Of a stretch of 45,715 bases of DNA, positions 2,932 through 19,726 are shown piece by piece. The translations under genes and the position numbers were made by a program. The notes beneath the pieces were generated by a model. That model made no database searches and was not told where the DNA came from. It worked only from the letters and a program-made list of their open reading frames with translations. The first letter of the stretch is position 1, and each line of letters opens with the position of its first letter. This DNA comes from Chlorobiota bacterium (GTDB lineage Bacteria > Bacteroidota > Ignavibacteria > Ignavibacteriales > Melioribacteraceae): positions 1 through 45,715 of the forward strand of contig JAADIR010000077.1 in assembly GCA_013151245.1 (NCBI GenBank), read 5' to 3'.

Positions 2932-4581
<1,650 letters not shown>

Positions 4582-4608
4582 TAGATTCCCCTCTTCTTCA
4601 ATAAAATT

Positions 4609-4635
4609 AAGGCGGCGCTTTGCCGCCTTTTTTAT
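4609..4635. terminator. Intrinsic terminator after groEL
   Basis: The stem AAGGCGGC (4609-4616) pairs with GCCGCCTT (4622-4629) around a five-base loop and is followed by a T-run. An A-rich stretch precedes it, so it may also stop transcripts from the convergent histidine kinase gene ending at 4773. Confidence 0.88.
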
Positions 4636-4772
4636 TTCCGGATGTTGATAATTTCCTTTATCATAACAATGCGCTATCAGCGTCATTAAGTAAACGACAT
4701 TAACCTGAAAGTCGGGGCTGGAAAGAATTTCCGCGTAACGCAATCTTTGGCTCATATTTATAAATCGGGGGA

Positions 4773-6260
4773 TCAATTATTAAACTTAACTCTGAAAAGC
4801 GAGCCTTGATTTTTTTTGCTTTCAACTTCAATTTCGGCGTTGTTCAGTTCGCAGTATTTTTGAACGAGCGCCAAGCCGATTCCGTTTCCTTCGTATTTGC
4901 GGGTATAGCCCATTTCTTCTTGCGTAAACGGCTGAAAAAGTTCGGAGAGATATTCTTCCGAAATGCCTATTCCCGTATCAATCACATCCACAACCAGCCT
5001 TCCTTTTTCGCAGCGGTAAAGTTTAATCGTAACTTTTCCTTTGTCGGTATATTTAATTGCATTCTCAACAAGTTGAGTGAAAATCTGCTCCACCGTATAT
5101 GAATCGGCGACGATCTCCGTATTTTCGGTTTCGATACTTATTTCAAGTTTCAATCCTCTGCTTTTTGCTTCTTTCTTGAAATATACCGCAATTTTTCCGA
5201 GAATATCCGCGTATAAATCTAATCGAACGGGAATTACTTCGTAAGTTCCAGCCTGTATTTCGGATAAGTTCAATAAAAGATCGACAGTTCGAATGATTCT
5301 ATACCCCGCTCTATTCACCAAACCGAACGATAATTTCGTTTCTTCGTCAACTTGGTCTTTCAAATCGTCTTCTATCAAAGACGTTAAGCTGAGTATTGCA
5401 TTGATCGGCGTGCGTATTTCGTGGGACATCTGAGCAAGAAAAATTGACTTGAGCTTGTCTGACTTCTCCGCTTTCTCCTTGGCGTCATAAAGTTCTACGG
5501 TTCTTTTTTTCACCCGCCGTTCCAGTTCTATGTTTGATAACTCAATACGTTCCCGTTCCAATTCAAGAAGGCGGTTGGTAAAAAATTCGCTTCTTCTGTA
5601 ATACTCAATAGCGTATCCCGCAATCATGCTGAACATAAGCGTTGAAATTAAAAAGAAATTATTTCCGATAAGCATAACAAGAGGAACATGACTATAAAAA
5701 ACAGCAACCGCTTCGTAAATTAAAACGGTTGTCATTGTGGAAAACGTTGCCCAAACAAAACGTAAGCCGACAAAAGTAAACGCAAAAATAAAAACCAGAA
5801 TAATGCCCGGATAGTACAACGAGTTGACATGAGGTCCGCCTATTGCCGTCATTGCAATTATCCCGGAGCCGACTATAATCATTATGAGCGCCAAATGCAG
5901 CTGCAGAAACCGCCGGGTTACGTCCGTAATAACTAAAACTGTACTAATTACAATCAAAGGAACAATTATTACCAACCGAATAAAAATGAAAGCGCCCGCA
6001 AAATCCGGCGTCAGAACCAAATCCAGAAATGAAAAGCCCGCATAAAACAACAACCCCAAAAAATGCGAAAAGATGGTTTGACTGCGAAGACTTCGTTTGA
6101 AAAAGACTTGAAACTCTTCTTCCAAAAAAGAATCTTTACCAATAAACTTCAAAGTGAACGGATGCAGCGCGGGCGCCGAACTGCCGTCCGGAGAACGCGC
6201 AAATAAAATCAGTTCGGCGACTTTCTTAATGTTTTTTTTATTGATAATTTGAGATATCAT
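4773..6260 (-). CDS. Multi-pass membrane sensor histidine kinase
   Basis: A 495-residue protein. After about 55 cytoplasmic residues there is an integral membrane sensor of six or so helices (about 60-225), a coiled-coil linker (about 228-268), a HisKA domain with phospho-acceptor His280 in AQMSHEIRTPINAI, and a HATPase domain with N box (QLVENAIKYT), DTGIGIS and NGIGLAL motifs. The membrane part is MASE-like in layout but I cannot name its family. No response regulator or receiver domain is adjacent. It converges on groEL. The ATG at 6260 has a GGAAG ribosome-binding site. The upstream 444 bases hold repeat copy B. Confidence 0.9.
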   Translation of the reverse strand: MISQIINKKNIKKVAELILFARSPDGSSAPALHPFTLKFIGKDSFLEEEFQVFFKRSLRSQTIFSHFLGLLFYAGFSFLDLVLTPDFAGAFIFIRLVIIVPLIVISTVLVITDVTRRFLQLHLALIMIIVGSGIIAMTAIGGPHVNSLYYPGIILVFIFAFTFVGLRFVWATFSTMTTVLIYEAVAVFYSHVPLVMLIGNNFFLISTLMFSMIAGYAIEYYRRSEFFTNRLLELERERIELSNIELERRVKKRTVELYDAKEKAEKSDKLKSIFLAQMSHEIRTPINAILSLTSLIEDDLKDQVDEETKLSFGLVNRAGYRIIRTVDLLLNLSEIQAGTYEVIPVRLDLYADILGKIAVYFKKEAKSRGLKLEISIETENTEIVADSYTVEQIFTQLVENAIKYTDKGKVTIKLYRCEKGRLVVDVIDTGIGISEEYLSELFQPFTQEEMGYTRKYEGNGIGLALVQKYCELNNAEIEVESKKNQGSLFRVKFNN

Positions 6261-6460
6261 CCATCTTCCGACCGATTATTTCTTTAAAGTAAAAATCCAC
6301 TTTCTAAGAAGGCGGCTTTGGATTGTCCTTAAAGGGCGCTTCATAGCTTCCCGTTATAAGCTAAAAGTAAAATGGTTTCAACTTTACATTTAATTCTTTC
6401 AAGTCATTCCCGATAAAAAACATCGGGACAAATAGTTTTTTGTAAGAAAATCTATTTGTC

Positions 6461-6655
6461 TTTATTCATAGCGCGGTAAACCGCAATTGATAATTGACAA
6501 TGGAAAATGGAAAATTGGAATTTTGAGCGTAACAATTAATGTTTCGGTTTGACTGATTGAATTTCTCATTCATTCCATCATCTATTCATTCATTCTTAAA
6601 TTAATCTTCGAAATTTCTTTACGAAAAAAACAAAGATTTTAATTGTAATACTATA
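6461..6655 (-). repeat. Dispersed intergenic repeat R1, copy B (internally deleted)
   Basis: It shares 27 identical bases with copy C at its hairpin end (6461-6487; GCGG-TAAA-CCGC at 6473-6484) and then the same AT-rich and CATTCATTC-rich core. It lacks most of the GC-richer half present in copies A and C, rejoining near TTGTAATACTATA (6643-6655). A separate fragment similar to that half, with CCCGATAAAAAACATCGGG, lies just outside at 6409-6427. Its hairpin end faces the kinase gene at 6260, though about 200 bases away. The reverse strand reads ATGAATAAAGACAAATAG just after the hairpin, a five-codon frame. No gene is seen in 6261-6704. Confidence 0.8.
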
Positions 6656-6692
6656 ATTCATAATTCACAATTCATAATTCACAATTCATAAT
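6656..6692. repeat. 14-bp tandem repeat, about 2.6 units
   Basis: The unit ATTCATAATTCACA occurs at 6656-6669 and 6670-6683, with a partial third copy to about 6692. It abuts repeat R1 copy B and lies between the convergent-side end of the symporter gene and the repeat. Simple AT-rich tandem repeat, no evident function. Confidence 0.8.
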
Positions 6693-11555: not shown

Positions 11556-13316
11556 ATGAACGCAACAAAAATTAAAAACATATTATTCAAAAACAATTTA
11601 AATATTATAATCGGAGGCGTAACTCTCCTCATTATCTTTCTTCTTTTTTTTGCCGCCGTCTATATTTTCAACGTCGCTAAAGAGGATGCAAAACGGATCC
11701 ATCAAGCGCAGCAATTAGAGCTGGCAAAATCCGCGGCTCACGGAATCGACACATATTTTAACCGATTGGAACAAGACCTCGTTTATACTACTCTTTATTC
11801 TGAATCGCAAAAGGAATTGAAAAATTATTTAGCGCATCAAATAAATAAAGAAGTTGTAAAATCCGTTTTTTTAGTTGACGGAAACGGAAGGATAATCTTG
11901 GAAGAAGGAAAACTTCTTAATGATGCGTCAAAAAGAATTGTCGGGAAATTATTTTCGGAGAATAAGCAAAGCGGTAAATTTCATTTTCTATATTCGGAAG
12001 TTCTCCCCTATTTTGAAAATTCAGGTTCCGATTCCCTTTATTTTTTTATTCTGCATCTGTTTGCAAACGATAGTAATAGCATAGATCGAAACGCAAAGGG
12101 TTCGGGATTTCTAATTAGTTTCGATTGGCTGATGGAACAGTTCATTGTTCCGCTGAAATTAAGCGAAAGCGATTTTGCTTGGGTTCTGGATAATAGCGGG
12201 AAACTAATTTACCATCCCACTCATTCCGATATGCTTCTCCGCAATATCTCCGACACCGATGAAAGCTGCGCCGAATGTCATTCAACGTTCAGCGTTCAAA
12301 AACAAATGCTTGCCGGAAAAGCTTCAACGGCGGAATACTCAATAGGCGACGAACCGAATAAAATCGTCGGGTATTATCCGATTATTTTAGGACAGAAAAA
12401 ATGGATACTTGCAATATCAACATACTTGCCTGCAATAACCGCCGATATTAATAAAAATTTCAAAGCCTTTTTCATAGCGTCGGGAACCGCCATTTTGCTG
12501 ATTCTCATTCTTGCAGCCGTTTTTTTTATCACAAATCTTAATAAAATAAAAGCGACTCAAGCGGCGAAGCATTTGCTGGAAACCAGCCGAATTCAAGAAA
12601 AACTTAATCACGCTTCAAAACTTGCCTCGTTAGGAGAACTAGTAGATTCGGTGGCGCATGAAATCAATACGCCTACGGGAATAATTTCCGCCGAAGCGGA
12701 TTCGATGCTTTTTGACGATAAAATAAACCAAAGCGTAAAAAATGAATTGAGAATAATTAAAAAGCAGACCAGACGAATTGCGGACTATACAAAAAGCCTT
12801 CTTACTTATTCAAGAAGAATGCCTTTCAATCCTAAAGTTAACGACTTAATTAAACTTATCGACGAATGTCTTTTTTTACTGAACCCGAAGCTGCGATCAA
12901 AACAAATTCAAATTGAAAAAGATTTTGAAAGGGAAAAAATAGAGTTCCTTTTTGATTGGGGAAAGGTTGAGCAGGTAATCATAAACATAATAAGCAACGC
13001 CGTAGATTTTATAGGCGAAAATCCTAAAATCACGATTAAAGTTACTTTTGAAAATGAAACGGAAGAAAAAAATATCAAAAAATATACGGTAATTAGAATT
13101 TCCGATAACGGGAGCGGCGTCGCCGAACAAAACCGCGAATTGATTTTCGATCCTTTTTTCAGCACAAAAGAACCCGGCAAAGGAACGGGATTAGGGTTAT
13201 CAATTTCCAAAGCGATTGTAAAGAGACACGGCGGCAAAATATCAGTAGAGTCAAATAATGAAAGCGGCGCGACATTTGTGATAAAATTACCTTATATTCA
13301 AACTAGTCAGTATTAG
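11556..13316 (+). CDS. Membrane histidine kinase with a c-type haem motif in its sensor domain
   Basis: A 586-residue kinase. TM1 (about 18-40) and TM2 (about 305-328) bracket a Cache-like extracytoplasmic sensor. Near its end the sequence HPTHSDML...DESCAECHS holds a CxxCH haem c motif (Cys238, Cys241, His242). After a short coiled linker comes a HisKA domain with His368 in SVAHEINTPTGI, then a HATPase domain with NIISNAVDF, DNGSGV and GKGTGLGL motifs. The NtrC-type regulator follows after 10 bases, so the two form a pair. Periplasmic sensor domains with one CxxCH are known in some Geobacter signalling proteins; here redox or small-ligand sensing is inferred. The ATG at 11556 has only a weak ribosome-binding site. 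Confidence 0.9.
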   Translation: MNATKIKNILFKNNLNIIIGGVTLLIIFLLFFAAVYIFNVAKEDAKRIHQAQQLELAKSAAHGIDTYFNRLEQDLVYTTLYSESQKELKNYLAHQINKEVVKSVFLVDGNGRIILEEGKLLNDASKRIVGKLFSENKQSGKFHFLYSEVLPYFENSGSDSLYFFILHLFANDSNSIDRNAKGSGFLISFDWLMEQFIVPLKLSESDFAWVLDNSGKLIYHPTHSDMLLRNISDTDESCAECHSTFSVQKQMLAGKASTAEYSIGDEPNKIVGYYPIILGQKKWILAISTYLPAITADINKNFKAFFIASGTAILLILILAAVFFITNLNKIKATQAAKHLLETSRIQEKLNHASKLASLGELVDSVAHEINTPTGIISAEADSMLFDDKINQSVKNELRIIKKQTRRIADYTKSLLTYSRRMPFNPKVNDLIKLIDECLFLLNPKLRSKQIQIEKDFEREKIEFLFDWGKVEQVIINIISNAVDFIGENPKITIKVTFENETEEKNIKKYTVIRISDNGSGVAEQNRELIFDPFFSTKEPGKGTGLGLSISKAIVKRHGGKISVESNNESGATFVIKLPYIQTSQY

Positions 13317-13326
13317 GAATAATAAA

Positions 13327-14709
13327 TTGAATAACGCAAAAATATTGATTGTTGACGACGAACGTGAGATGCTTGAAAGCACGGAAAAAATCCTTCGCGG
13401 CGCGGGATATAAAACCAAAATATTGAGCGAACCGGAGAAAATTAAATCCGTGTTAAATTCCGAGCGTTTCGATCTGATACTTTGCGATTTGCTGATGCCC
13501 GTTTGCGACGGAAACCAGATACTTGAATTAACGCTTAACGAATTCCCCGAAATTCCCGTGATAATTTTTTCGGCATACGGCACGGTTGACAGAGCCGTAG
13601 CCTGCATGAAACACGGAGCGTTCGATTTTTTGGAAAAACCGTTTGACGGCGAACATTTGATTGTAGTAGTGGAAAAAGCGCTTAATTTTTCTACCGTCTC
13701 AAGCGAACGGAAAATACTTCTCCGTCAGTTGATAGATAAATACAGCGCTCACAACCTTGTGGGACGAAGCGAAAGCATTGTTAAAATATTTGAAACAATT
13801 GAAGACGTCGCCCGCTCGGACGCAAATGTTTTAATAACCGGAGAAAGCGGAACGGGAAAAGAACTGATTGCCAGAAGCATTCACGCCCGCGGAAAAAGAA
13901 GATTAAAAGAGTTCGTGCCCGTAAACTGCAGTTCGTTTCCGGATAGTCTTTTTGAAGCCGAATTGTTCGGCTACGAAAAAGGAGCGTTCACCGGAGCGGA
14001 TTCGAAAAAAATAGGGCTGCTCGAATTTGCCGACGGCGGAACGTTTTTTATGGATGAAATCTGCGAGCTGCCGATGAATCTTCAAGCCAAATTACTGCGC
14101 ATTTTGCAGGAAAGAAAATTAAGACGGCTCGGAGGAAACGAAGAAATTGAATTTGACATTCGATTGATTTCGGCGACGAATAAAAATATTGAAGTACAAC
14201 TCAAGAAAAATTTTTTCAGAGAAGATTTTTATTACAGAATTAACGTAATTAATATTCACGTTCCGCCGCTGCGGGAACGGACGGAAGATATTCCGATTCT
14301 CGCGGAACACTTTCTTCAAACATATATGACTAAAACGCAAAAACGTATTGAAGGCTTCGCTCCGGAAGTTCTCTCGGTTTTTGAAAACTACCCGTGGCCC
14401 GGAAACGTAAGGGAATTGAAAAACGTAATAGAACGGGCGCTTGTTTTTGCAAAAGGAAAGTTGATAACTATTTCCGATATTCCCGCGAAGATTGCGCCCT
14501 CCGGAAAAACGGAATACGACTTCGCAAAAAACTCTATCAAAAAGCTAAAAGCCGAAGCCGTCGCCGAAATTGAACGCGCATTCATCGTTCACGTCCTTAA
14601 AAAACATAAAGGCAACGTCACAAAAGCCGCCGAGGAAATGTCAATGACGCGAAGAAATATTTACAGGCTAATAAAGCGGCACAACGTCGAAGTTTCGCAA
14701 TACAGATAA
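13327..14709 (+). CDS. NtrC-family sigma-54-dependent response regulator
   Basis: A 460-residue transcription activator. A receiver domain (1-120) has acidic residues DD near 10-11, phospho-acceptor Asp54 in LCDLLMP and the Lys of LEKPF. The AAA+ domain (about 140-380) has Walker A GESGTGKE (172-179), the sigma-54-contacting GAFTGA (219-224), Walker B GTFFMDEI and the VPPLRER segment. A Fis-type helix-turn-helix (about 425-455, VTKAAEEMSMTRRNIYRLIKRH) closes it. It begins with TTG 10 bases after the kinase stop, preceded by TAGGAA. The obvious target is the cytochrome operon downstream, which has a candidate sigma-54 promoter. Confidence 0.95.
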   Translation: MNNAKILIVDDEREMLESTEKILRGAGYKTKILSEPEKIKSVLNSERFDLILCDLLMPVCDGNQILELTLNEFPEIPVIIFSAYGTVDRAVACMKHGAFDFLEKPFDGEHLIVVVEKALNFSTVSSERKILLRQLIDKYSAHNLVGRSESIVKIFETIEDVARSDANVLITGESGTGKELIARSIHARGKRRLKEFVPVNCSSFPDSLFEAELFGYEKGAFTGADSKKIGLLEFADGGTFFMDEICELPMNLQAKLLRILQERKLRRLGGNEEIEFDIRLISATNKNIEVQLKKNFFREDFYYRINVINIHVPPLRERTEDIPILAEHFLQTYMTKTQKRIEGFAPEVLSVFENYPWPGNVRELKNVIERALVFAKGKLITISDIPAKIAPSGKTEYDFAKNSIKKLKAEAVAEIERAFIVHVLKKHKGNVTKAAEEMSMTRRNIYRLIKRHNVEVSQYR

Positions 14710-14734
14710 TCTTCTTTTTGACATAAAATATCAC

Positions 14735-14753
14735 TGTGAAATTTTTTTTCACA
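14735..14753. promoter_or_regulatory. Candidate activator site 1 (19-bp palindrome)
   Basis: TGTGAAA, five T bases, TTTCACA form a palindrome with 7-bp arms, 25 bases after the activator gene's stop. The same TGTGA-N9-TCACA pattern, with identical first eight bases, occurs at 14939-14957. NtrC-family proteins bind paired palindromes of this size upstream of sigma-54 promoters. The assignment is by position and pattern only. Confidence 0.5.
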
Positions 14754-14784
14754 TCTTCAAAATACGCCCATTCTTTTATGTTTA

Positions 14785-14913
14785 GGAGGCTTTGAATAAC
14801 CTTTCACTAACCGTCATTCCGTGATGTTTTTACGCGGAATCTATCCTTATTTGGGAGATTCCGGTTAAAAGATTGCCGGAATAACATAAGATTTTATGTT
14901 ATTCAAAGCCTCC
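14785..14913. repeat. MITE-like element R3 with 16-bp terminal inverted repeats
   Basis: GGAGGCTTTGAATAAC (14785-14800) is exactly complementary to GTTATTCAAAGCCTCC (14898-14913). The 97 bases between have no coding capacity and include CGTCATTCCG and further partly complementary stretches, so a long hairpin is possible. It lies between the two candidate activator sites. No second copy was seen in the window. Confidence 0.72.
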
Positions 14914-14938
14914 ATTTATAAGCTATTTTCGCCGGCGT

Positions 14939-14957
14939 TGTGAAATGCGACGTCACA
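14939..14957. promoter_or_regulatory. Candidate activator site 2 (19-bp palindrome)
   Basis: TGTGAAATGCGACGTCACA has the same TGTGA-N9-TCACA layout and the same first eight bases as the site at 14735-14753. It lies about 220 bases upstream of the candidate sigma-54 promoter at 15178-15191. The nine-base centre differs from the six-base centre of Crp/Fnr sites. Confidence 0.48.
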
Positions 14958-15176
14958 TTTAATTTAATCGCCGCAGGAAAAACAATTTGAAATTAGGTTT
15001 TAACGCGCCGGTGAAATCCATTTTTCCTCAGCGTAAAAACGAACTGAAACTTCTCCGGAAACGCATTTTTTCCAAAGTTTTTCAAGGAAACGGGCGACCG
15101 CGAAAGGCTCCGTTAAGATTTATTTTCAACCTAAAAAGAAAATTAGCTCTCTTGCATGATTAAAAGACAAAAGGTC

Positions 15177-15192
15177 AGGTACAACTATTGCA
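15177..15192 (+). promoter_or_regulatory. Candidate sigma-54 promoter (-24/-12)
   Basis: AGGTACAACTATTGCA has GG at 15178-15179 and GC at 15190-15191 with the obligatory ten-base spacing, and keeps the GG-AC and TTGCA core of the TGGCAC-N5-TTGCA consensus. Transcription would start near 15203, about 33 bases before the first gene of the cytochrome operon. The adjacent NtrC-type activator carries GAFTGA, which only makes sense with such a promoter. The remaining upstream sequence 14958-15170 shows nothing else recognisable. Confidence 0.65.
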
Positions 15193-15235
15193 ATAAAAGT
15201 GCATAATCTTTTTTACAACAGAGATAGGTAAAGTT

Positions 15236-16885
15236 ATGGCAAATTCAGACGGCGGTTTTGAAAATCTTGAAGTCATTGAATATTTGAAGAATTTGGAAAG
15301 TCGAGTTTCCCGGATAGAAGCCCGTTTTCGTATTTCTCCCAATCCCAGCGATGAACTTTCAACCCGGAACTCGTCTGAAGAAAAAGATCAAAATCTCTCC
15401 GAACAGAGAATCGGGGAATTTTGGTTTGCTAATTTGGGCATTCTTGTGCTCGTATTCTTTTTCACCTTTTTAATTATTGAACCTTTTAACGGATATAATC
15501 AATTCATTCCGCCGGCAATCGGTTTGGCCGCGGTTTTCATTTTAATAGGAGCGTCGTTCCTCGCGAAGAATCATTTTCTGGTTATCTCCAACGAACTTTT
15601 CGGTTCGGGGCTTTTTATTCTTTTCGTAGCAATTCTCCGTCTGTTCAATTTTTCGCCCGAGCCGGCGCTGCAGAACATTATTCTTGAAGCGTTTTTACTG
15701 TCGGCAACTTCGCTGGGTATTCTTTTAATTTCATATAGAAGAAAGGCTCTGCTGTTAAACGTAATCGGACTTTTACTTCTAGCCGCTACCGGATTGATAC
15801 TTAACATCGGTTTGGCGCTTTTCATAATTTTATTGATGTTAGCCGGCGTCGTCAGTTACTTATATAGCGCGGGCGTATTCAAAAACACCGGCTATTTAAT
15901 GACCGGTATTTTCATTACATATATCAGTTTTGCCGCTTGGGTCGTGAATAATCCATTCCTCGGCAACGAACTGAAAATAAACGACGGCAGCATAATAGGA
16001 ATCGCTTTCCTTCACATTTACATGCTGATTTTCGCATACCCGATTCTCATGAGCGATTCGAAAAATGAAAAAGGATTTAACGATATTGCCTCGTTCATTA
16101 ATACTGCAATGTGTTTCATCATTTATACCGGATTCGTTCTGACGGCTATGAGAGAAAACGCAGCTCTGTTGGAAACTTTCTATTTTATCACCTCTCTCGG
16201 ATTGGCTTCTCTATTCTGGATAAAAAAACAGAATAAGTATTCAACCTACTTTTATTCCATGGCGTCTTTCGTAGCTTTGAGCGTTGTAATTTTATTAACG
16301 GAGGCAATGCCGAACTCGCTTTTATATTTGATTTGGCAAAGCGTAATAATAATCGGTTTAGCGGTTTGGTTCAAATCAAAGAGCATCATCATTACAAATT
16401 TTATTATTTATCTGACAATAACGGTTGCATATTTTATGATTTCGGAACATTTTGAACTTGGCGGTTTGAGCATCGGTTTTGCGGCGTTGTTCAGCGCAAG
16501 GCTTTTGAACTGGCAGAAAAACAAACTTACAATCAAAACCGAATTTCTCAGGAATACGTATCTCGCGGTAGCGTTTGTTTCTATTCCAATTACGTTATTC
16601 TCAGCGCTTGAAAGCGGCTATATCGGGCTTTCCGTCATCGGGCTTGCCATGCTTTATTATCTGATGTCTTCCATACTAAACAATCTCAAATATCGCTGGA
16701 TGGCTCATTTAACGCTGCTTATTTCCATAGTTTATATCATAGGTTATTGGTTTACAAACGAAAGCAGTCCTTTGCAGTTGTTTACGCTTGCGGCTCTGGC
16801 GGTAACTCTCATATTCGTTTCCGTTTTCTTTACAAGAAAGAGAACGAGAGAAAAAACGACTCTCGAAAATTCAACTCAATCATAA
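15236..16885 (+). CDS. Polytopic membrane protein, DUF2339-like layout
   Basis: A 549-residue protein of uncertain function. Residues about 1-60 are hydrophilic with a heptad-like stretch (LEVIEYLKNLESRVSRIEARF), and from about 65 onward there are some 15 hydrophobic helices to near residue 535. A cytoplasmic coiled segment followed by many short helices resembles DUF2339 membrane proteins, though this one is shorter than usual. It is the first gene after the sigma-54-like promoter and precedes the Rieske gene by 43 bases, so it is probably co-expressed with the respiratory complex. Whether it is a subunit, an assembly factor or unrelated is unknown. Confidence 0.7.
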   Translation: MANSDGGFENLEVIEYLKNLESRVSRIEARFRISPNPSDELSTRNSSEEKDQNLSEQRIGEFWFANLGILVLVFFFTFLIIEPFNGYNQFIPPAIGLAAVFILIGASFLAKNHFLVISNELFGSGLFILFVAILRLFNFSPEPALQNIILEAFLLSATSLGILLISYRRKALLLNVIGLLLLAATGLILNIGLALFIILLMLAGVVSYLYSAGVFKNTGYLMTGIFITYISFAAWVVNNPFLGNELKINDGSIIGIAFLHIYMLIFAYPILMSDSKNEKGFNDIASFINTAMCFIIYTGFVLTAMRENAALLETFYFITSLGLASLFWIKKQNKYSTYFYSMASFVALSVVILLTEAMPNSLLYLIWQSVIIIGLAVWFKSKSIIITNFIIYLTITVAYFMISEHFELGGLSIGFAALFSARLLNWQKNKLTIKTEFLRNTYLAVAFVSIPITLFSALESGYIGLSVIGLAMLYYLMSSILNNLKYRWMAHLTLLISIVYIIGYWFTNESSPLQLFTLAALAVTLIFVSVFFTRKRTREKTTLENSTQS

Positions 16886-16928: not shown

Positions 16929-17369
16929 ATGGGAAATAACGGAAGAAGGAAATTCATTACCGCGCTTTTGAGCATAGGAGGTTTAGGAACATTCATTTCG
17001 GCTTTCTATCCGGTCGTTAAATATATGACTCCCGTTAAATCGGGCAAACCGAGCGTTTCTTCGCTGAAATTAGGAAAGCTCTCCGATTTTGCAAAAAATG
17101 CCTGGGAAATTGTAAGGTTCGGCAGGAAACCGCTTATCATAATTAATGACGAAAACGGAAAACTTCACGCTCTTTCTGCGGAATGCACTCATCTCGATTG
17201 CATTGTGCAATATTCAAAAGAAGAAAAAATGATTATCTGCGCGTGCCATAACGGGCATTACGATCTAAACGGAAAAAATATTTCCGGTCCGCCTCCCAGA
17301 CCGCTTAAACAATATAAAGTAAATATTCAAAACGGCGAAATTATCATTACAAAGAAAGAAGACGGGTAA
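16929..17369 (+). CDS. Rieske iron-sulfur protein of a cytochrome bc/b6f-type complex
   Basis: A 146-residue protein. The N-terminus has twin arginines (GRRKFI, residues 5-10) followed by a hydrophobic helix (about 9-33), fitting Tat-dependent export and retention as a membrane anchor. The [2Fe-2S] cluster motifs are C86-T-H88-L-D-C91 and C104-A-C106-H107, followed by the SGPPPRPL proline loop. Ligands should be Cys86, His88, Cys104 and His107, with a Cys91-Cys106 disulfide. Cytochrome b starts 6 bases later. It moves electrons from quinol at the Qo site to a periplasmic cytochrome. Confidence 0.95.
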   Translation: MGNNGRRKFITALLSIGGLGTFISAFYPVVKYMTPVKSGKPSVSSLKLGKLSDFAKNAWEIVRFGRKPLIIINDENGKLHALSAECTHLDCIVQYSKEEKMIICACHNGHYDLNGKNISGPPPRPLKQYKVNIQNGEIIITKKEDG

Positions 17370-17375
17370 ATCAAT

Positions 17376-18458
17376 ATGAAAACTTTAGAAGACTCGAAGA
17401 TATTTTCGTGGCTCCACTCGAGATACGATCTTTCAGGAATTTTACATTTGCTCTATCATAAAAAAGTCCCTGTTCACAAGCATACCATTTGGTATTACAT
17501 GGGAGGAGTAACTCTCTTTCTGTTCTTAATCCAGCTTTTAACCGGCATTTTATTGTTGATGTATTATCAGCCCGGAGAAAATTCGTCTTATGAAAGCGTA
17601 AGGTTTATCGTTAACAAAGTCAATTTCGGCTGGCTGATTCGCAACTTACATTCGTGGTCGGCAAATCTGATGATCTTTTTCGCTTTTGTTCACATGTTCA
17701 GCGTTTTTTTCACGCGCGCCTATGAAAAGCCGAGGGAACTAACTTGGGTAACCGGCGTGTTGCTCCTTGTGCTGGCAATGGTATTCGGCTTCAGCGGCTA
17801 CTTGCTCCCTTGGAACGAACTTTCTTTCTTTGCTACGAAAGTTGGAACCGATATCGCCGGAGCGGTGCCGGTAATTGGGGAAGGAATCAGAACCGTGCTC
17901 CGAGGCGGCGAAGACGTAACGGGAGCGACGCTATCGAGATTCTTCGGTTTCCACGTGGCAATTTTGCCGGCGCTTTTTACAATCGTCTTAGTCGTTCATT
18001 TATTTCTCGTTCAAAAGGTTGGAATGAGCGAACCGGATTTTTTTAAGAAACTGCCGGATGAAAAAAAGAAATTCATCAGCTTCTTCCCCGATTTTGCAAT
18101 ACGCGACGCTTTACTCTGGCTGATTGTGCTTTATCTGCTTATCTTCCTCGCGCTCTTTTTCCAATGGGATTTGGGAATTAAAGCCGACGCGCTTTCTCCT
18201 GCGCCGACGGGAATAAAACCGGAATGGTATTTTATGTTTATGTTTCAATCTTTGAAAATGCTCCCGCCTCATCTCGGCTTTATTGAAGGCGAAGTTTTCG
18301 GCGTGCTTTTTTTCGGAGCGGCGGCTCTTGCATGGATGCTGATTCCTTTTGTTAAATTCAATTCAAAAAAATACACAAAAGAAAGAATCATGCTTGTTTT
18401 AGGAACTTTGGTCGTTTTGTTTATTGTTAGTATGACAATTATCGGGTACTTATTATGA
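17376..18458 (+). CDS. Cytochrome b (fused b6 plus subunit IV type)
   Basis: A 360-residue integral membrane protein with about eight helices. Haem ligand pairs are His92/His106 and His193/His208; the second pair is 15 residues apart, as in b6-type rather than mitochondrial cytochromes. The quinol-oxidation motif PEWY is at 282-285, inside the region equal to subunit IV, so both halves are in one chain. It takes electrons from (mena)quinol and passes them to the Rieske protein. The stop codon overlaps the next gene's start in an ATGA, indicating translational coupling with the nine-haem cytochrome. Confidence 0.95.
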   Translation: MKTLEDSKIFSWLHSRYDLSGILHLLYHKKVPVHKHTIWYYMGGVTLFLFLIQLLTGILLLMYYQPGENSSYESVRFIVNKVNFGWLIRNLHSWSANLMIFFAFVHMFSVFFTRAYEKPRELTWVTGVLLLVLAMVFGFSGYLLPWNELSFFATKVGTDIAGAVPVIGEGIRTVLRGGEDVTGATLSRFFGFHVAILPALFTIVLVVHLFLVQKVGMSEPDFFKKLPDEKKKFISFFPDFAIRDALLWLIVLYLLIFLALFFQWDLGIKADALSPAPTGIKPEWYFMFMFQSLKMLPPHLGFIEGEVFGVLFFGAAALAWMLIPFVKFNSKKYTKERIMLVLGTLVVLFIVSMTIIGYLL

Positions 18459-19726
18459 AACTAAAATTAAATTTATTTTTAGCGCTTCCGGCTCTGTTTC
18501 TCCTTTTCAATCTTCAAGCAAACGCTTTCAGTACGGCAAGCCAGGATTCAACCGTTGACAACTGCATCGCTTGTCATCAAGATAACGATAATATGCCGGA
18601 CAATTATAATCCGGAGGACATTCACTACAAAGTAGGTCTTTCGTGCTTCAACTGCCACGGCGGCAACCCGAAAACGGAGGATGAAGACGCCGCGATGGAT
18701 CCGGATAAAGGATTTCTCGGCGCTCCTTCGAAAGAAGAAATACCCGCATTTTGCGGAAGATGCCATTCGGATTTTGCTTTCATGCAGCAATACCGTTCTG
18801 AAGTGGAAACAGACCAGGAAAGTCAATATTATACCAGTCAGCATGGAACTCTTCTAAAGAAAGGAGACACGAAAGTCGCCGTCTGTTCAAACTGTCATAC
18901 GGCTCATTCGATTTTTTCGCCTAACGATCCGCGATCGTCCGTTTATCCGGCAAATCTTCCCGAAACGTGCAACGCTTGCCACGGCGACGCCGAATATATG
19001 AAAGATTATTCAATCCCAACCAATCAGTACAAACTATACAAAACAAGCGTTCACGGAATAGACCTTTATGAAAAACACGATATGTCCGCGCCGGTTTGCA
19101 ACGACTGTCACGGAAACCACGGCGCAAGACCGCCGGAATTAAATTCCATTCCGCGTATCTGCGGCTCTTGTCACGTTAAAAACTTAAATTATTTTTCATC
19201 TTCCCCAATGGGAAAAGAAATGGAAGAGGAAGAAATTCACACTTGCGAAACATGCCACGGTTATCACGATATTCAAAAGGCAAGCGACGATTTTATCGGA
19301 ACCGGAGAAAAATCGTTTTGCATAGAATGTCACGACGAAGGCGACGAAGGTTACATTACTGCGGCTTTCATTAAATCTCGTATCGATACATTGAAACTTA
19401 AATATTCAACCGCCTCCGACGATATGAACAACGTGATAATAAAAGGAATGGACGATATTGATATTTCTTTCAAATTGAAAGAAGCGAGACAAAAGCTGAT
19501 TGAAACGCGCACGGCTATTCATTCTTTCGATACTTCTCAAGTAAATACTATTGCTTCGCAGGGAATAAAACTTTCGAACGAAGCAATCGGAATGGCGCAA
19601 AAAGAAATGGACGAGTATTATAACCGCCGCACGGGGTTCATTTATTCTTCAATCGCTTTGCTGATACTCGGCTTGGCGCTTTATCTTAAAATAAGAACTA
19701 AAAACGGAAAGGACAAAAAAGCGTAA
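18455..19726 (+). CDS. Nine-haem membrane-anchored cytochrome c
   Basis: A 423-residue protein with a signal peptide (1-24), nine CxxCH motifs starting at Cys37, 64, 100, 144, 172, 215, 236, 264 and 289, an acidic and helical C-terminal part, and one membrane helix (about 393-413) near a basic tail. It should stand in the periplasm, anchored by its C-terminus. Its overlap with the cytochrome b gene suggests it replaces cytochrome c1/f as the electron acceptor of the Rieske protein. Similar multihaem partners occur in alternative bc complexes of anaerobes. The terminal acceptor (nitrite, metals or other) is not evident. Confidence 0.93.
   Translation: MKLKLNLFLALPALFLLFNLQANAFSTASQDSTVDNCIACHQDNDNMPDNYNPEDIHYKVGLSCFNCHGGNPKTEDEDAAMDPDKGFLGAPSKEEIPAFCGRCHSDFAFMQQYRSEVETDQESQYYTSQHGTLLKKGDTKVAVCSNCHTAHSIFSPNDPRSSVYPANLPETCNACHGDAEYMKDYSIPTNQYKLYKTSVHGIDLYEKHDMSAPVCNDCHGNHGARPPELNSIPRICGSCHVKNLNYFSSSPMGKEMEEEEIHTCETCHGYHDIQKASDDFIGTGEKSFCIECHDEGDEGYITAAFIKSRIDTLKLKYSTASDDMNNVIIKGMDDIDISFKLKEARQKLIETRTAIHSFDTSQVNTIASQGIKLSNEAIGMAQKEMDEYYNRRTGFIYSSIALLILGLALYLKIRTKNGKDKKA

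Follow-up and report, generated by a model that had tools for sequence, protein, structure and literature searches.

What switches on the respiratory operon that lies behind a kinase–regulator gene pair in the stretch of DNA analysed here (45,715 nt; hereafter the window)? An earlier note on this DNA had drawn a single circuit from a haem sensor, an activator, sigma-54 and the operon, pointing to a GG-N10-GC element and two 19-bp palindromes ahead of the operon. The letters and coordinates given for all three elements were correct. The locus is laid out as follows.

11556–13316, + strand: sensor histidine kinase with a dCache-like periplasmic domain (Pfam dCache_1/HisKA/HATPase_c)
12267–12281, + strand: CAECH within the kinase, predicted haem c site (CxxCH in 14/14 orthologues)
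13327–14709, + strand: NtrC-type response regulator with receiver (D54), sigma-54 AAA+ domain and Fis-type HTH (HTH_8) (Pfam, residues)
13981–13998, + strand: GAFTGA of the regulator, residue 219
14735–14753: palindrome 1, TGTGAAATTTTTTTTCACA, exact, predicted activator binding site (UAS); one of two genome-wide, type conserved in relatives
14785–14913: MITE/REP-like dispersed repeat between the palindromes, inverted ends GGAGGCTTTGAATAAC / GTTATTCAAAGCCTCC
14939–14957: palindrome 2, TGTGAAATGCGACGTCACA, exact, predicted activator binding site (UAS); the other of two genome-wide
15177–15192, + strand: candidate sigma-54 (-24/-12) promoter, AGGTACAACTATTGCA; position conserved in 13/13 loci
15236–16885, + strand: 549-aa membrane protein, first operon gene
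16929–17369, + strand: Rieske [2Fe-2S] protein (Pfam PF00355)
17376–18458, + strand: cytochrome b, fused b6/petB-petD type (Pfam PF00033/PF00032)
18455–19726, + strand: multihaem cytochrome c with nine CxxCH (Pfam; CxxCH count)

The regulator has the domains of the NtrC family (receiver, sigma-54 AAA+ domain with GAFTGA, HTH_8), and rpoN is present in the genome as a single copy (one PF04552 match, E 3.4e-60, in a 490-aa open frame). The earlier name 'cytochrome operon' suits the Rieske, cytochrome b and cytochrome c genes but not the first gene, whose product is a membrane protein without a match in Pfam or NCBIfam. In most of the loci compared below, this 549-aa protein accompanies the bc operon as its first or last gene.

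Sites between the regulator gene and the operon

The two palindromes are identical in their first eight bases, as had been noted, and palindrome 1 begins 25 bases past the activator's stop codon. Across the 3.58 Mb of the genome, exact TGTGA-N9-TCACA has two occurrences, each of them within 14735–14957, and the same pattern written backwards does not occur at all; chance origin of the palindromes is ruled out by this count. Looser definitions gave 42 places in the genome for the extended palindrome with up to three mismatches (14 for the backwards control) and four for TGTGA-N7-10-TCACA.

The repeat between the palindromes (129 bp) has 19 matches in the genome, counting the window copy and a partial self-match, and no clean target duplication was seen at 14785–14913. 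The palindromes lie 204 bp apart, start to start, a distance that would shrink to ~75 bp if the repeat were removed, and where a relative's locus has two sites, they are nearer to each other than in the window. By its insertion the repeat has altered the palindrome spacing.

The sigma-54-like site sits 43 bp ahead of the ATG at 15236. We scored such sites against the published consensus mrNrYTGGCACG-N4-TTGCWNNw (-24 GG / -12 GC, as given in PMC2725144), requiring GG at -24 and G at -12; nine of the 12 scored positions match in AGGTACAACTATTGCA. Sites with at most two mismatches were found seven times in the window, where 10.9 were expected, GG-N10-GC occurs 219 times on its two strands, and when the intergenic region was shuffled, 5% of the shuffles scored as high as AGGTACAACTATTGCA. 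Taken alone, the site is thus near chance and becomes convincing only via conservation; the GG-N10-GC spacing that had been put forward is by itself barely above chance. Because the window's site alone does not exceed chance, the case rests on comparison. Transcripts from sigma-54 promoters are expected to begin about 12 bases past the -12 element and to depend on RpoN; here, transcription would start near 15202–15203. Sigma-70 elements, which had been named as evidence against this promoter, were not found in 14690–15260 (0 pairs vs 2.0 expected, for an E. coli-type consensus; the promoter type of another phylum is possible).

Conservation with the regulator and its operon

A search of 164 genomes of the order with the regulator as query (E ≤ 1e-128) gave matches in 16, at 17 places including the window. 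Evenly drawn samples contained the orthologue in 10/391 genomes of the class and in 2/395 of the phylum, the own genome being one of these two. GAFTGA is present in 12 of the 17 regulators and GSFTGA in four; no match was found for L036. At 13 places a respiratory operon follows the regulator directly and on the same strand (the window, L034, L035, L036, L037, L038, L039, L081, L082, L084, L085, L086 and L087; hereafter the linked loci), and at the other four (L040, L079, L080, L083) no respiratory operon adjoins it. The operon is of the bc type in 12 of the 13 linked loci. Some bc operons enclose an octahaem cytochrome and ferredoxin-like and NrfD-like proteins (names assigned by eye), and some carry the 549-aa protein as last gene.

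In genome G015 the regulator occurs twice, once before a bc operon (L034) and once before an operon that looks by eye like a molybdopterin-oxidoreductase operon (L035); both copies have a sigma-54-like site. The first operon gene just after the sigma-54 site can also be that of a degenerate receiver-domain protein of ~125 aa (L035:4957–5325; L037, oriented, 4479–4850; L038:5738–6121; L081, oriented, 4087–4464), which is present in L079 and L085 too. Three copies were scanned and gave weak Response_reg matches. A feedback element or phosphate sink is a possible role.

A sigma-54-like site lies 25–82 bp before the start codon of the first gene in all 13 linked loci. The summed sigma-54 score of the 13 regions was 112, compared with 48.6 for shuffles (sd 10.5, max 80) and 53 for the reverse strand; chance origin of the set of 13 sites is ruled out by the score against shuffles. 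The -12 element is GC in eight loci (in L081 via a second site, TGGTATAGAATCTGCC) and GT, GA or GG in five (L034, L035, L037, L082, L085). The summed palindrome score was 117 (shuffles: 96.6, sd 2.05, max 103). The motif TGTGA(A/C)AT occurs 17 times in 4,005 bp, in 10 of the 13 regions, and at 0.069 per kb elsewhere in the retrieved loci, figures to be read with the motif having been chosen after the data were seen and the related loci not being independent. Six of the 13 regions have an exact TGTGAAAT half-site or the complement of one, and TGTGACAT also forms a direct repeat in L037 and L081. L085, L086 and L035 are without TGTGA(A/C)AT, L085 without any TGTGA. Conservation of the palindromes in relatives that share activator and operon, the comparison set beforehand as a check, was thereby confirmed, and across the loci the palindromic upstream sites co-occur with the NtrC-type regulator.

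We compared these regions with bc operons of genomes lacking the orthologue. Cytochrome b of the window kind (E ≤ 1e-90) was found in 60/164 genomes, and 36 bc-operon stretches were retrieved. Three of them (L105, L106, L107) came from orthologue genomes; L107 was left unscored, as the promoter of the same operon is carried by L079. Nine more were excluded from the controls: L118 and L136, linked to another kinase–regulator pair and scored separately, and L123, L124, L132, L135, L137, L138 and L139, whose operon start was judged unclear or beyond the stretch. The remaining 24 operons formed the control set, the first gene of each being picked by hand from the ORF table. TGTGA(A/C)AT was found in 0/24 controls (8,986 bp) compared with 10/13 linked regions; a sigma-54 score of at least 7 at 20–90 bp from the first gene in 2/24 compared with 13/13; and a palindrome score of at least 9 in 1/24 compared with 9/13. 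The Fisher values (3e-8 to 5e-5) are overstated, the loci being related and the half-site and the 20–90 bp limit having been refined after viewing. In one control (L108), from a genome with no orthologue above the cut-off (G023), both a TGTGA/TCACA palindrome and a sigma-54-like site are nevertheless present. Its cytochrome b is 75–76% identical to that of the window, and ~2.7 kb of contig precede the operon, so a regulator gene may lie beyond the contig end.

Regulator and operon lie apart in four genomes. Upstream of the operon, both signals are kept in G363 (TGGCACTGATATTGTT and CGTGAAATTTATTTCTCAC) and in G397 (TGGTACGAAATCTGAA and GTGTGACATTCTTTGTCC). The G392 operon has GTGTGACATTAATGTCCCAC, which contains TGTGACAT, and TGGTATAAAAATAGAT, recognized by eye only; no scripted sigma-54 match was obtained at the right place upstream of it. 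In G021, which has the orthologue, neither signal was found upstream of the bc genes. These separated loci are the best evidence that the sites go with operon and regulator rather than arising as a side effect of the regulator gene's 3' end. In G397, regulator and operon are separated by a large inserted gene (L079, oriented, 3498–6680), whose 1060-aa product looks restriction-enzyme-like by eye. Among 26 loci of more distant relatives, tblastn found no bc operon genes adjoining the regulator homologue, and 24 kinase matches were without CxxCH in the stretch read.

As the same signals recur before related clusters that have the activator and are mostly missing without it, the signals ahead of the respiratory operon are very probably a real on-switch run by the neighbouring kinase and activator. 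The palindromes could instead serve a regulator of the CRP/FNR type, with the sigma-54 match incidental or separately used. TGTGA/TCACA half-sites do resemble CRP sites, and the looser TGTGA-N7-10-TCACA exceeds its backwards control over 16 genomes, so that other proteins may use such sites. CRP sites, however, have the form TGTGA-N6-TCACA; the two sites of the window have N9 and those of relatives N8–N10, and TGTGACAT also stands as a direct repeat. Moreover, TGTGA(A/C)AT tracks the regulator (10/13 regions with it, 0/24 without) and occurs in two of the four genomes in which regulator and operon are apart. We therefore regard a CRP/FNR-type reading as improbable.

Still less probable is that the palindromes are terminators of the kinase–regulator transcript and that the operon promoter is unrelated to them. 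They do sit just past a stop codon, a simple scan called 14934–14954 terminator-like, and the predicted fold of palindrome 1 (-6.4 kcal/mol) is more stable than that of shuffles (z -3.25). Against this, no U tract lies behind palindrome 1, and palindrome 2 folds no better than shuffles (z -0.32). It is the primary sequence that is conserved, including in direct repeats unable to pair, and it is found again ahead of operons that do not directly follow the regulator (G363, G397, G392).

The kinase sensor

The earlier note had also called the kinase a haem sensor, and this holds as a fair prediction because CxxCH is conserved in 14/14 kinase orthologues. There is a single copy, at the same place in each, with C238, C241 and H242 invariant; it is flanked by the invariant H-P-x-H-x-x-M motif and the E-Y strand of what was assigned by eye as the second Cache module. 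dCache_1 matches all 14 orthologues (best E 1.7e-16). Two paralogues come nearest to the regulator (L041, L042); the kinases beside them also have CxxCH, but in another sensor architecture, with HAMP.

Sensors of the sCache_heme family (DUF3365/Tll0287, PF11845; e.g. GSU0582/GSU0935) are described in PMC12889525 as the first known Cache domains with a covalent cofactor, and those fused to signalling modules as binding NO. The window kinase resembles them in its predicted Cache-fold periplasmic sensor, its CXXCH and the fusion to a histidine kinase, and the CXXCH-in-Cache feature of the family is present in 14/14 orthologues. Unlike the family as described there, it matches dCache_1 in 14/14 orthologues and has its CxxCH after the HPxHxxM of the second Cache module. 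Membership of PF11845 was not found (one weak match among the 14 orthologues, E 0.23). A PDB profile search of the sensor gave no significant hit (best 5g4y, a Cache chemoreceptor, E 0.26), and a single-sequence structure model was too poor to use (pLDDT 37.9). The double-Cache sensor with its predicted c-haem is possibly a new variant.

An alternative without a haem sensor, in which the kinase's CxxCH holds a disulphide or a metal and its domain binds an ordinary Cache ligand, would leave the downstream circuit the same. dCache domains usually bind small organic ligands, and both the faint PF11845 match and the unusable structure model fit this possibility. Nevertheless, the full CxxCH with its invariant His occurs in 14/14 kinases, in a region predicted to be periplasmic, and the cells that carry these kinases encode c-type cytochromes. 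We consider this alternative unlikely, if less so than the two concerning the palindromes.

The predicted circuit and its counterparts

Taken together, the comparisons argue, at a probability of about 85%, for a self-contained circuit from c-haem kinase to NtrC-type regulator to sigma-54 to respiratory operon; the circuit of the earlier note is thus supported by conservation as a prediction. The sequence elements, their co-conservation with the regulator and the conserved CxxCH are seen directly. One covalent haem c in the periplasmic double-Cache domain of the kinase would read a periplasmic redox or gas signal, with redox poise, NO or O2 as candidates. The kinase would then autophosphorylate and, as the gene pairing suggests, pass the phosphate to D54 of the adjacent regulator. 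Phosphorylated regulator dimers would bind the two TGTGAAAT-type palindromes and form an AAA+ oligomer, and through DNA looping the GAFTGA loop would open sigma-54 polymerase waiting at 15177–15192. The membrane protein, Rieske protein, cytochrome b and nine-haem cytochrome c would thereby be switched on.

According to PMC11841059, a haem-binding kinase in NmpRSTU of Myxococcus xanthus acts on an NtrC-like regulator. Respiratory genes, including those for cbb3 oxidase, have sigma-54 promoters there, and the regulator binds palindromes arranged in pairs (GCGCA-N5-TGCGC) ahead of these promoters. The system predicted here shares with it the haem kinase, the NtrC-type regulator, the paired palindromes and a sigma-54 respiratory promoter. 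As described in that source, the NmpRSTU relay has multiple components, its haem sensor is a protoglobin and it acts on several targets, whereas the window has one kinase–regulator pair, a periplasmic Cache domain predicted to carry c-type haem, another palindrome and a bc-type operon. By this analogy the circuit type is already known and the sensor is what is unusual. Sigma-54 response regulators of Desulfovibrio vulgaris are likewise NtrC-type, with palindromic sites and often adjacent targets; the sites described there have arms of 4–6 bp and spacers of 3–8 bp, compared with 5-bp arms and a spacer of 9, or 8-bp arms and a spacer of 3, in the window (PMC3333781). The parts of PMC3534657 and PMC3162934 consulted held nothing bearing on the sites.

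Our literature search found no paper joining Ignavibacteria, sigma-54 and cytochrome. The Geobacter bc-type cytochromes CbcBA and CbcL are under the sigma-54 regulator BccR; the search did not find BccR with Geobacter. Compared by description, the window operon resembles CbcBA/CbcL in encoding a bc-type quinol-oxidising complex with a multihaem cytochrome, and differs in its Rieske protein and conserved membrane protein. The Geobacter complexes are inner-membrane cytochromes used according to the available acceptor, as reported in PMC12307469.

A broader reading, which we offer tentatively and with the odds somewhat against it, is that these kinases form a separate, hitherto undescribed class of c-haem double-Cache sensors, independent of sCache_heme in origin, that co-evolved with an NtrC-type regulator dedicated to them, with TGTGA(A/C)AT as operator and with a sigma-54 promoter whose -12 element is relaxed. 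Such a set would be a portable redox- or NO-controlled switch over bc/NrfD-type and molybdopterin operons, in cis and in trans.

For the order, the analysis names an operator, a promoter and a sensor, all open to test, for the predicted control of a quinol-oxidising bc operon. It also points to a possible c-haem Cache sensor outside the sCache_heme family described in 2026 (PMC12889525). If the domain binds haem, it would be a second kind of Cache domain with a covalent cofactor.
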